A DNA stretch of 64,000 nt from Chelativorans intermedius (GTDB lineage: Bacteria > Pseudomonadota > Alphaproteobacteria > Rhizobiales > Rhizobiaceae). Below, in pieces: positions 9,658 to 49,773 of the stretch. The stretch spans positions 1 to 64,000 of the forward strand of contig NZ_JAODNW010000014.1 in NCBI RefSeq assembly GCF_025398255.1, written 5' to 3'. The translations under genes and the position numbers were made by a program. The notes below the pieces were generated by a model. It had not been told where the DNA came from and searched no databases. It worked only from the letters and a program-made list of their open reading frames with translations. How positions within the stretch are numbered: the first letter of the stretch is position 1; each line of letters opens with the position of its first letter.

Positions 9658-9748
9658 TGGCGGAGAGGATGGGATTCGAACCCACGAGGCCCTTTTGGGG
9701 CCTACTCCCTTAGCAGGGGAGCGCCTTCGACCACTCGGCCACCTCTCC
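9658..9748 (-). tRNA. tRNA-Ser (anticodon GCU)
   Basis: The 91-base gene encodes a class II tRNA. The acceptor stem is GGAGAGG / CCTCTCC with discriminator G and an encoded CCA (9658-9660). The anticodon loop is CTGCTAA inside the stem CTCCC / GGGAG, giving anticodon GCT, which reads AGC/AGU serine codons. A long variable arm (GTAGGCCCC AAAA GGGCC) and a T loop GTTCGAATC are present. Its 3' end faces the accessory island at lower coordinates, the orientation expected for an integration site. Confidence 0.95.
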
Positions 9749-46449: not shown

Positions 46450-47196
46450 CTACTCGGGCATCCGGTATTGCATGAAGCGGTTCTCTCGCACGTCGAAGAT
46501 GAGCCCGGTCTCCTTGAGCGCCGGGCTTGCCAGCGGCACGATCCTTGCCGCCACCTCGGAAGGGTGGGGCAGCGTCTCGGGGTCTTCTCCCGGCATGGCC
46601 TGGGCGCGCATGGCGGTGCGTGTGGCCCCCGGATTGACGGCGTTGACCCTGAGCGCCATGTTCTTGGTCTCGTCCGCCCAGGAGCGGGCCAATGCCTCGA
46701 CCGCTGCCTTGGAGGCGGCATAAGGGCCCCAGAAGGCGCGCGCCGAGTGTGCCGCGCCCGACGACATGATGATGGCGCGCCCGGCATCGGAGGCCCTCAG
46801 CAGCGGATCGACGGAACGGATGAGCCGCCAGGTGGCCGTCACGTTGATAGCCATGACCTTCTCGAAGGTTTTCGCCTCCACATGGCCGATGGGCGAGATG
46901 ACGCCCAGAATGCCGGCATTGGCCACCAGAATGTCGAGCTTGCCCCAGCGCTCGTGTATGGCCCCGCCCATGCGGTCGATCCCGGCCATGTCCGTGAGGT
47001 CGAGCGGCACCAGGGTCGCCTCGCCTCCCAGCGCCTTGATCTCGTCGTCCAGTTCCTCAAGCCCGCCCACGGTCCGCGCCACGGCGATCACATGGGCGCC
47101 GGCGGCGGCCAGCTCCTTGGCAAGGAAATAGCCAATTCCGCGCGAAGCGCCGGTGACAAGGGCGAGACGGCCCGCAAGATCGGTCGAACTGGGCAT
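46450..47196 (-). CDS. Short-chain dehydrogenase/reductase
   Basis: The 248-residue oxidoreductase has TGASRGIG for cofactor binding, NAG in VANAGIL, and the Ser-Tyr-Lys triad in IIMSSGAAHSARAFWGPYAASKAAVE. The cofactor and substrate are unknown; it is not in the fatty-acid cluster. It diverges from the sugE gene, with which it shares a 180-base upstream region. Confidence 0.9.
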   Translation of the reverse strand: MPSSTDLAGRLALVTGASRGIGYFLAKELAAAGAHVIAVARTVGGLEELDDEIKALGGEATLVPLDLTDMAGIDRMGGAIHERWGKLDILVANAGILGVISPIGHVEAKTFEKVMAINVTATWRLIRSVDPLLRASDAGRAIIMSSGAAHSARAFWGPYAASKAAVEALARSWADETKNMALRVNAVNPGATRTAMRAQAMPGEDPETLPHPSEVAARIVPLASPALKETGLIFDVRENRFMQYRMPE

Positions 47197-47270
47197 TCGG
47201 ATGTTCCCGTTGCGTGGATTTGCGGGGGTGATAGTACGAATCTTGCGCCGGAGAAACCCCGTTCGCCATA

Positions 47271-47299
47271 TTGCCGCACTCGTTCGCCCGGCCTATATC
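47271..47299 (+). promoter_or_regulatory. Putative promoter of the guanidine riboswitch-sugE unit
   Basis: TTGCCG (47271-47276), 17 bases, TATATC (47294-47299). Transcription would start near 47305-47307, precisely at the beginning of the first riboswitch hairpin. Confidence 0.55.
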
Positions 47300-47306
47300 C
47301 ATCCAA

Positions 47307-47371
47307 GCGGGGACGACCCCGCCATTGCCCGAAAACCGGATGGGGACGGCCTCATCGCCATGTGATGAGGA
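47307..47371 (+). ncRNA. Guanidine-II (mini-ykkC) riboswitch
   Basis: Two hairpins with ACGR tetraloops stand in tandem: P1 GCGGGG-ACGA-CCCCGC (47307-47322, 6 bp) and P2 GATGGGG-ACGG-CCTCATC (47339-47356, 7 bp with one G-U), joined by a 16-base linker. This is the defining architecture of the mini-ykkC class that binds guanidinium in the ACGR loops. The P2 3' arm CCTCATC (47350-47356) can alternatively pair with GATGAGG (47364-47370), which contains the sugE ribosome site GAGGA. Without ligand the site is hidden; with guanidine P2 forms and frees it. The downstream gene is a guanidinium exporter, which fits. Confidence 0.93.
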
Positions 47372-47376
47372 ATGCA

Positions 47377-47694
47377 ATGGCTTGGCTCTTGTTGTTTGGA
47401 GCGGGCGTGTTCGAGATCGGCTGGGCCCTCGGGCTGCGCTATTCGGAAGGGTTCACGAGGTTTTGGCCGACGGCGGCAACCCTTGCGTGCATGATCGTCA
47501 GTTTCGGCCTTCTCGGCGCCGCGCTGCGCACCTTGCCGCTCGGCACGGCCTATGCCGTTTGGACAGGCATCGGCACGATCGGTACGGCCCTGCTCGGCAT
47601 CGCCCTGTTCGGTGAACCGGCCGATGCGGTGCGGCTGGCATGCATCGGGCTGATCGTAGCCGGAATCGTCGGCCTGAAGCTCGTCACGCCCTGA
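47377..47694 (+). CDS. sugE: SMR-family guanidinium exporter (SugE/Gdx)
   Basis: The 105-residue protein is a four-helix small multidrug resistance transporter that works as a dimer in antiparallel orientation. Glu13, the proton/substrate glutamate, sits in GVFEIGWALGLRYSEGFTR; the WALxLxxSxGFTR pattern is that of SugE/Gdx guanidinium exporters rather than EmrE drug pumps. GTAYAVWTGIGTIGTALLGI is the third conserved block. The ATG at 47377 has GAGGA at 47367-47371; an ATG five bases earlier is out of frame. It is controlled by the guanidine-II riboswitch. Confidence 0.95.
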   Translation: MAWLLLFGAGVFEIGWALGLRYSEGFTRFWPTAATLACMIVSFGLLGAALRTLPLGTAYAVWTGIGTIGTALLGIALFGEPADAVRLACIGLIVAGIVGLKLVTP

Positions 47695-47702
47695 TCGAAC
47701 GT

Positions 47703-49175
47703 CTATTGCCCGCCGGCCGCCAGCAGCGATAGCTGGCGCACATTGTCGGCGTGTTCATGGTCCGTCAGCGCGGTCGGATATTCGGTGGTGAAGCAGGCAT
47801 CGCAGAACTGCGGCTGGGCATTGTTGCGCGCCGCCTCCCCGACGGCGCGATAAAGCCCGTCTATGGACAGGAAGCCGAGGGAATCGACACGGATGAACGC
47901 CGCCATCTCCTGCACCGTCATGCGCGAGGCAAGCAGCTTGGCCGTGTGCGGCGTGTCCACGCCATAGAAGCAGGAGGCGCGCGTGGGCGGTGAGGCGATG
48001 CGCATGTGCACCTCCGTCGCGCCCGCATCGCGCACCATCTGCACGATCTTCTGGCTGGTGGTGCCGCGCACGATGGAATCATCCACCAGCACGACCCGCT
48101 TGCCCTCGATCAGCCGGCGGTTGGCATTGTGCTTCAGCTTCACGCCCATGTGGCGGATGGCATCGGTTGGCTGGATGAAGGTGCGTCCCACATAGTGATT
48201 GCGGATGATGCCGAGCTCGAAAGGCAGCCCGGCTTCCTGGGCGAAACCGATGGCCGCCGGTGTGCCCGAATCGGGAACCGGCACCACGATGTCGGCCTCC
48301 ACCGGGTTCTCGCGCGCAAGCTGTGCACCGATCTGCTTGCGCACGTCGTAGACGTTGCGCCCCTCGACAGAGGAATCGGGCCGGGCAAAATAGACATATT
48401 CGAAGATGCAGAAGCGCTGCGGCTGCCGCGCGAAGGGGAAAAAGCTCTCGACTCCCTCCTCGGTGACGACGATCATTTCGCCAGCTTCCACGTCCCGCAC
48501 GAAGCGCGCGCCGATGATGTCGAGAGCGCAGGTCTCCGAGGCCAGGATCGTGGCGCCGTCGAGCTCCCCGAGCACCAGCGGGCGGATGCCCAGCGGATCG
48601 CGGCAGCCGATCATCTTCTTCGAGGTCAGCGCCACCACCGAGAAGGCGCCTTCGAGCTGACGCACCGCGTCGATGAAACGCGCGTTGGTGTTGTGCTCCT
48701 TGCTGATGGCCACCAGGTGCATGATGGTTTCGGTGTCGGAGGTGGAGGAGAAGATGGCGCCCTGCTTCTGCAGCCGCCGTTGCACCGTCATCGCATTGGT
48801 GATGTTGCCGTTATGCGCGACCGCCAGGCCACCCTCGGCAAGCTCGGCGAAGAAGGGCTGCACGTTGCGCAGGCCCGAGCCGCCGGTGGTCGAGTAGCGC
48901 GTGTGGCCGATGGCGCGCGCGCCCTTCAAGCGCTCGATCACGGCAGGCTTGGTGAAGGTGTCGCCGATCAGGCCGATATGGCGTTCGACATGGAACTGGC
49001 TGCCGTCGAAGGAGACGATTCCGGCCGCCTCTTGGCCGCGGTGCTGCAGCGCATGCAGGCCCAGCGTGACGATGGCAGCGGCATCCTGCCGCCCGAAAAT
49101 GCCGAACACGCCGCATTCATCGTGGAAATGATCGTCGGCTTCGCCCATCAAAGGCAAATTGCTGTCTCCCGCCAT
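47703..49175 (-). CDS. purF: Amidophosphoribosyltransferase
   Basis: The 490-residue enzyme makes phosphoribosylamine from PRPP and glutamine, the first step of purine synthesis. An N-terminal propeptide of about 20 residues precedes the nucleophilic Cys21 (DECGVFGIFG). The PRPP motif is VVLVDDSIVRGTTS. Cysteines for a 4Fe-4S cluster are seen in RFCIFEY and CDACFTTEYP. The ATG at 49175 was chosen because it gives the normal propeptide. It ends the dnaB-alr-radA-cvpA-purF run. Confidence 0.96.
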   Translation of the reverse strand: MAGDSNLPLMGEADDHFHDECGVFGIFGRQDAAAIVTLGLHALQHRGQEAAGIVSFDGSQFHVERHIGLIGDTFTKPAVIERLKGARAIGHTRYSTTGGSGLRNVQPFFAELAEGGLAVAHNGNITNAMTVQRRLQKQGAIFSSTSDTETIMHLVAISKEHNTNARFIDAVRQLEGAFSVVALTSKKMIGCRDPLGIRPLVLGELDGATILASETCALDIIGARFVRDVEAGEMIVVTEEGVESFFPFARQPQRFCIFEYVYFARPDSSVEGRNVYDVRKQIGAQLARENPVEADIVVPVPDSGTPAAIGFAQEAGLPFELGIIRNHYVGRTFIQPTDAIRHMGVKLKHNANRRLIEGKRVVLVDDSIVRGTTSQKIVQMVRDAGATEVHMRIASPPTRASCFYGVDTPHTAKLLASRMTVQEMAAFIRVDSLGFLSIDGLYRAVGEAARNNAQPQFCDACFTTEYPTALTDHEHADNVRQLSLLAAGGQ

Positions 49176-49227
49176 TGCTGGCCGCCTCGTGCCCTGTTGC
49201 TTGCGTTTCTGGCGGCCCCTGCGGCCG

Positions 49228-49773
49228 TCAGTTGTTGATCTCCGCTTCCTCGGCCGTGTCCGCGCCGGGCGAGAGACGGTCGAGTATCGACGTCTCCGGA
49301 TCCTCCGGCAAGAGATCCTGCAGCCACGTGCCCACCCCTTCCAGAAGTGGCCGCGACTTGGCCTCCGCGACCCATCGCGGCGGATTTGCCCCCAACAGCC
49401 AGTTGAGGAACAGAAGCGCCACCGCCACCACCAATATGCCGCGAACCGCACCGTACAGGAAGCCCAGCGTGCGGTCGAGCGCGCCGATCCTCGAATCGAT
49501 GATGAAGTCGGCGATCTTCATGGTGATGATCGTCACGATGATCAGCGTGACGAAAAACACCGCGGCCGCTGCCACCGCCAGCGCCACCATCGCACTGCTG
49601 ATATAGGGCGTCACATAGGGCAGGACCAAGGGATACAGAAGATAGGCCGCAACGGCAGCAATCGCCCAGGAGGCGATGGAGAGAATCTCCCGCGAAAAGC
49701 CGCGCACCATGGCCAGCATCGCCGAGACCAGCGTAAAGCCGACGAGAATGCCGTCAAGCAGCGTGATTGGCAT
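49228..49773 (-). CDS. cvpA: CvpA-family membrane protein
   Basis: The 181-residue inner-membrane protein has four transmembrane helices and the family motif MVRGFSREILSIASW and RIGALDRTLGFLYGAVRG. CvpA relates to envelope stress and colicin V production; its adjacency to purF is conserved across proteobacteria. The C terminus is acidic. Confidence 0.92.
   Translation of the reverse strand: MPITLLDGILVGFTLVSAMLAMVRGFSREILSIASWAIAAVAAYLLYPLVLPYVTPYISSAMVALAVAAAAVFFVTLIIVTIITMKIADFIIDSRIGALDRTLGFLYGAVRGILVVAVALLFLNWLLGANPPRWVAEAKSRPLLEGVGTWLQDLLPEDPETSILDRLSPGADTAEEAEINN

Follow-up and report, generated by a model that had tools for sequence, protein, structure and literature searches.

A compact Guanidine-II riboswitch ahead of a gdx gene in Chelativorans intermedius, and ribosome-site pairings and downstream genes among its relatives

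Guanidine-II (mini-ykkC) riboswitches form a class in which three platforms have been drawn for covering the ribosome site. In Escherichia coli, the anti-Shine-Dalgarno (anti-SD) platform is drawn in the linker (PMC9300104, PMC9094411). For Pseudomonas aeruginosa, where ligand-dependent ribosome loading has been measured, a P0 helix built from the flanks has been modelled (PMC9561414), and for Gloeobacter violaceus, a 2017 paper proposed a stem that overlaps P2 and the ribosome site and cannot coexist with the folded aptamer (PMC5486947). Among the exporters, the clostridial Gdx-Clo (6wk5, 6wk8, 6wk9) has a hydrogen-bond stack of E13, W16, S42, and W62, a Y59 switch, and a GXG motif in TM3, several of these functional residues being common to other SMR subtypes (PMC9574504).

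We analysed a 64,000-nucleotide stretch of Chelativorans intermedius (contig NZ_JAODNW010000014.1, positions 1 to 64,000; the window), in which a riboswitch precedes a gdx gene. The E. coli gdx riboswitch (50.4 bits against RF01068) has the same layout, an ACGA and then an ACGG hairpin just before gdx, but its anti-SD is drawn in the linker, whereas that of the window would be the 3′ arm of P2. The P. aeruginosa element shares the Guanidine-II aptamer but is modelled with a P0 helix, while in the window hardly any 5′ flank would be transcribed if the promoter described below is right. The mechanism proposed for G. violaceus, to judge by its published description only, is the same as the one we favor here, which is therefore not new; the P2-arm pairing may also have been drawn already in Sherlock 2017 or Reiss and Strobel 2017. 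The class, the ligand, the controlled gene, and the type of mechanism are thus all already known, and the interest of the locus lies in its compactness, as the whole ON/OFF logic fits within about 65 nt and is easily tested.

The aptamer and the gdx gene

A cmscan search of the whole window against Rfam gave two matches, Guanidine-II and one tRNA. The former (RF01068, positions 47305-47354) scored 42.1 bits against a gathering threshold of 32 (E = 5.3e-5), so the mini-ykkC assignment made in a preliminary description of this DNA passed the covariance-model check, and the two ACGR hairpins were present at the coordinates it had proposed. The tRNA gene has a long variable arm and lies at 9661-9748 on the minus strand (RF00005, 59.8 bits). 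Across the genome (101 contigs, 4.18 Mb), we found a single RF01068 match, with 150 of the 842 first-look candidates scored, and no match to Guanidine-I; the second SMR gene of the genome (G000:C48) has no guanidine-II match. The features of the locus are as follows.

47271 to 47299, plus strand: putative promoter, −35 TTGCCG (47271-47276), 17-nt spacer, −10 TATATC (47294-47299) (sequence, comparison)
47305 to 47354, plus strand: Guanidine-II (mini-ykkC) aptamer (RF01068 match)
47307 to 47322, plus strand: hairpin P1, 6 bp, loop ACGA, GCGGGG-ACGA-CCCCGC (sequence, RF01068 match, folding)
47323 to 47338, plus strand: linker, 16 nt (sequence)
47339 to 47356, plus strand: hairpin P2, 7 bp with one G-U, loop ACGG, GATGGGG-ACGG-CCTCATC (sequence, RF01068 match, folding)
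47350 to 47358, plus strand: putative anti-ribosome-site strand, P2 3′ arm plus 2 nt, CCUCAUCGC (9-bp helix in the predicted minimum, coadaptation in relatives)
47362 to 47370, plus strand: ribosome-site strand GUGAUGAGG, containing the Shine-Dalgarno GAGG 6 nt before the ATG (sequence, folding)
47377 to 47694, plus strand: gdx (sugE), 105 amino acids, SMR-family putative guanidinium exporter (PF00893, Gdx-Clo match, Gdx residues)

The element has the two GC-rich ACGR-loop hairpins of its class (ACGA and ACGG), separated by a linker of 16 nt, within the reported range of 7-40 nt (PMC7544219), and lies shortly before the ribosome site of a guanidine exporter gene: the gdx ATG starts 22 nt after the aptamer match, and P2 ends only 20 nt short of the start codon. 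It belongs to an established riboswitch class, of which it is a well-formed member, and does not define a new one.

The gdx product belongs to the SMR family (PF00893, 102.2 bits), and its best match in the PDB is Gdx-Clo (6wk5, 108.3 bits), with which residues 1-103 align. Against the NCBIfam SugE equivalog NF008512, it scored 124 bits with a cut-off of 126, the best of 21 models. Beyond the Glu13 that had been pointed out before, W16, S42, Y59, W62, and GIG 64-66 are also present, and from its sequence the product is a Gdx-type SMR protein, with transport as its predicted role. A divergent SDR gene lies upstream (46450-47196, minus strand) and a converging purF gene lies downstream (47703-49451, minus strand), so gdx appears to stand alone.

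Competing pairings at the ribosome site

The locus is very probably a Guanidine-II ON switch acting on translation, in which the P2 3′ strand covers the gdx ribosome site when guanidinium is absent. Transcription would start at P1 or within a few bases of it. Without guanidinium, the P2 3′ strand would leave its hairpin and form 9 bp with the ribosome site, resulting in low translation. With guanidinium bound in both ACGR loops, P1 and P2 would be joined by a kissing contact, and the P2 3′ strand would stay in P2, leaving the ribosome site free and allowing the exporter to be made. We infer that guanidinium binds this RNA, that the kissing contact forms in it, and that the gene is regulated in the cell; the support comes from the aptamer match, the two exclusive pairings, a closed form as the predicted ground state, the conserved place of the promoter, and, in relatives, an arm and site that are on average coadapted.

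The preliminary description had paired the P2 3′ arm CCTCATC with GATGAGG at 47364-47370. The pairing stands, but not its extent of 7 bp, as the competing helix joins 47350-47358 to 47362-47370 over 9 bp, including one G-U, closed by a CAU triloop. This helix is part of the predicted free minimum, and the two pairings do exclude each other as proposed, with folding in the absence of ligand predicted to favor the closed state. The leader (47306-47390) folds better than expected from its composition (z = −2.33; 2/200 shuffles as good). For 47305-47390, the free minimum is −36.9 kcal/mol with the ribosome site 0.2% unpaired, compared to −31.5 kcal/mol and 85% when P1 and P2 are forced. The same order was obtained for 47305-47420 (−48.0 versus −43.7 kcal/mol) and 47305-47450 (−61.6 versus −59.9 kcal/mol; 9% versus 86% unpaired), the gap between closed and open forms decreasing from 5.4 to 1.7 kcal/mol as the folded coding sequence lengthens. 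These predicted folds fit a ligand that raises gdx translation. The start codon is predicted to stay mostly paired with P1 and P2 forced (11-14% unpaired), which we regard as a limit of the model, yet it is unfavorable to the simple picture.

To calculate how often such pairing arises by chance, we held the arm fixed and dinucleotide-shuffled the downstream 22 nt 20,000 times. Pairing as good as that observed was seen in 177 shuffles with the 7-nt arm and in 60 with the 9-nt arm. As a control that allows for the complementarity that a Shine-Dalgarno sequence and a CCUC arm have anyway, we held GAGG and permuted the preceding 8 nt, which gave 688/20,000 (3.4%) and 106/20,000 (0.5%), respectively. 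The pairing between the arm and the ribosome site is thus more than chance.

Pairing among relatives and alternative readings

The aptamer search covered 101 near genomes, of which 31 had a match, and 397 genomes of the host's order, of which 111 did; from these we collected 147 distinct copies. By downstream gene, 78 precede SMR genes, 30 PACE-type genes, 23 urea-carboxylase-associated (UCA) genes, and 3 directly atpB, with 13 before other genes or none; these classes were assigned by short motifs, and some of the "other" copies resemble UCA or atpB leaders. Pfam and NCBIfam were each searched with five of the proteins (one PACE, one UCA, one atpB, and two SMR). For the pairing counts, 17 of the 131 SMR, PACE, and UCA leaders were dropped because the start lay outside 8-35 nt or the two loops were not found, leaving 68, 27, and 19, respectively. 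The permutation test used 83 non-redundant leaders out of 117.

Among SMR leaders (41 non-redundant), pairing of the P2 3′ arm is on average better with its own ribosome site than with permuted sites (mean, −6.93 versus −5.80; 0/5,000 permutations as low), and so does the arm together with the loop (−10.77 versus −9.55; 0/5,000). With one SMR leader per genus (n = 29), the difference persisted for the arm (−7.31 versus −6.15; median P < 1/300, worst of 100 draws 0.013) and for arm plus loop (median P = 0.003, worst draw 0.053). When each family contributed a single SMR leader (n = 13), the median P values were 0.003 (worst draw 0.48) and 0.038 (worst draw 0.50), respectively. Against dinucleotide-shuffled sites, the mean gain of the arm was small (−6.93 versus −5.97), and 27/41 SMR leaders beat the median of their own shuffles. 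Coadaptation of arm and site was weak in PACE leaders (116/5,000 permutations as low) and absent from UCA leaders (3,401/5,000).

In ensemble folding of the 68 SMR leaders, the site was predicted to pair mainly with the P2 loop or 3′ arm in 12 of 29 genera; in the others, the site was mostly unpaired (7 genera) or paired chiefly with the sequence just after P2 (4), the linker (4), or P1 (2). Within the window's own genus, the P2 loop or 3′ arm was the main partner in two of eight SMR leaders (L001 and L006) and had a zero share of the site's predicted pairing in the other six, so that close relatives are predicted to use other ribosome-site pairings. P1 was the main predicted partner in 9/14 genera for PACE leaders and the linker in 7/10 genera for UCA leaders, the latter without significant coadaptation. 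Judged from these sequences, the P2-arm platform looks selected in the exporter-linked set but not fixed, a result that bears on the identity of the anti-SD strand in a class with three drawn platforms.

Two further arrangements were observed among the copies. In L011, L009, L223, and others, the sequence from the ribosome site onward is complementary to both the loop and the 3′ arm of P2 (−16 to −19 kcal/mol); in L011, for example, GACGACCCU can pair with AGGGUCGUC, which covers the ligand-binding loop too. A closed state of this type would bury the ligand-binding loop itself, and if it forms, the ligand and the ribosome site would be rivals for the same bases. In L139 (G002:C9:11134-11477), a single SMR gene is preceded by two guanidine-II copies spaced about 250 nt apart, of which the first has no clear gene to itself; the genome carries a third copy as well.

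The linker could instead act as the platform in the window, as in the E. coli model (PMC9300104, PMC9094411), with CCAUUGC at its edge (47322-47328) hiding the AUG by pairing with GCAAUGG in the start-codon stretch (47374-47380), either alone or alongside the P2-arm pairing. This 7-bp helix is present in the predicted closed minimum of the two shorter of the three folded transcripts but is lost from that of 47305-47450, and shuffled linkers match it in 357/5,000 cases, which leaves start-codon pairing by the linker weak. Nor do SMR leaders show any coadaptation of linker and site (4,989/5,000 permutations at or below their own; median P = 0.99 with one leader per genus), and the linker as a general anti-SD in SMR leaders is not supported by the permutation tests. 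We consider this reading unlikely. Loss of the 20 bp from −30 to −11 accompanies constitutive gdx expression in E. coli (PMC13064478). By our own mapping on the MG1655 sequence, this deletion removes P2 and spares the linker, and therefore points to the P2 region, not the linker alone, as the repressing element.

The copy might instead be degenerate or retuned and unresponsive to physiological guanidinium, for example, through the ACGG loop of P2. The ACGA of P1 is reported to be the stronger binding site in E. coli, with ACGG as a tuning variant (PMC9300104), but the E. coli gdx riboswitch has the same two loops in the same order and is reported to be guanidinium induced (PMC13064478), while the window aptamer scores above gathering and keeps all stem pairs. 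A nonresponsive copy is accordingly very improbable in our view. Guanidine-I riboswitches act on a transcription terminator (PMC5486947), and control by transcription ending, intrinsic or by Rho, would be an alternative to ribosome access, but in a search for intrinsic terminators, we found no terminator-like site in 47100-47900, and only 20 nt separate P2 from the start codon; we give this option scant credence.

The promoter bears on where the transcript begins. At an E. coli-type threshold (at least 9/12 matches), no promoter-like site was found, TTGCCG-17-TATATC having 8/12 by our own count; no shuffle of the window's upstream stretch scored as high (0/20). Among the relatives, taking all classes together, 104 of 146 copies (one of the 147 was too short) have their best promoter-like site 3-12 nt ahead of P1, compared to 20% of shuffles. 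By class, this position was found in 67/77 SMR-linked, 27/30 PACE-linked, and 4/23 UCA-linked copies. The promoter that had been proposed to place the start at P1 thus recurs in position, although it falls below the E. coli-type threshold, and this recurrence makes it very likely that the transcript begins at about P1. A P0 platform like that of the P. aeruginosa model (PMC9561414), with the ribosome site paired to sequence 5′ of P1, was rejected as highly unlikely here, since the promoter, conserved in position, ends just before P1 and, if correct, would leave at most 1-2 nt of transcribed 5′ flank.

PACE-type genes and second atpB genes downstream of guanidine-II riboswitches

By motif, the 30 of 147 copies before PACE-type efflux genes include L014, L017, L018, L022, L024, and L030. 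The L014 protein matched PF05232 (156 bits) and NF033664 (134.9 bits). From this association, guanidinium or a relative may be a substrate that some PACE transporters export; a search of titles found no literature on a guanidine riboswitch with the PACE family.

We examined atpB copy number in ten genomes, nine picked for riboswitch-atpB hits or for comparison plus the window's own. Five had two copies (G261, G452, G380, G353, and G266, from three families and three genera) and five, including the window genome, had one. The riboswitch-linked copies are as follows.

L116/L230, G261:C1:609817: atpB 17 nt after the guanidine-II match, SMR gene follows
L200/L229, G452:C1:1434646: atpB 18 nt after the guanidine-II match, SMR gene follows
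L201/L246, G380:C10:12904: atpB 20 nt after the guanidine-II match, SMR gene follows
L133/L247, G353:C21:142661-142703: atpB 225 nt after the guanidine-II match
L148/L245, G266:C1:4510365: atpB 240 nt after the guanidine-II match

The second atpB of G452 scored 345 bits in NCBIfam as an Fo a subunit. In G353 and G266, a 68- or 73-codon frame lies between riboswitch and atpB, no SMR gene was seen in the stretches of these loci examined, and riboswitch control of atpB is less certain. A c subunit motif follows the window genome's own atpB but is absent from 9-10 kb around three of the second copies and from the smaller regions examined at the remaining two; within these limits, the second copies lie outside an ordinary Fo operon.

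Aligning the five riboswitch-linked AtpB proteins with nine housekeeping copies (that of G261 was left out) separated the groups by 15 columns, some of which would be expected from shared ancestry alone. These include an Asn-to-Val change four residues after the RLFAN Arg and a cluster immediately before QAY. A search for RLF[AG]VMLAGH, independent of riboswitches, recovered exactly these five loci in the 397 order genomes, which the riboswitch search had covered as well, and none in 385 class genomes. Counting from the essential Arg, we map the Asn to aN214 of E. coli, which lies in the inlet half-channel. Val and other substitutions at aN214 reduce ATP-coupled proton conductance, yet cells still grow on succinate (PMC11121307).

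We suggest that the second AtpB may be a guanidinium-tolerant a subunit induced by guanidinium. If so, ATP synthase would be a physiological target of guanidinium in which a tolerant stator subunit is swapped in, with export by Gdx as a common first line beside it; should the observation be borne out, it would identify a target of the ion in the cell. By title or abstract, we found no literature that connects ATP synthase, its a subunit, or atpB with guanidine or mini-ykkC, and the riboswitch-atpB observation is more novel than the window riboswitch. The linked proposition, that the P2 3′ strand serves as the anti-SD in many exporter-linked switches of the order, with the ribosome site imitating the P2 5′ strand, and that ATP synthase is a guanidinium target, is tentative, and we hold it to be possible rather than probable.

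Short atpB-like starts were also seen between a guanidine-II riboswitch and an SMR gene at two other loci. One, in the window's family (G033:C4, L019/L232), is a truncated start reading VAGPVEQF..TSAFYMVLTV, and the other (G031:C4:126299, L021) reads MTKPIEQ. Both look like decayed relics, in the window's family, of the riboswitch-atpB-SMR arrangement.
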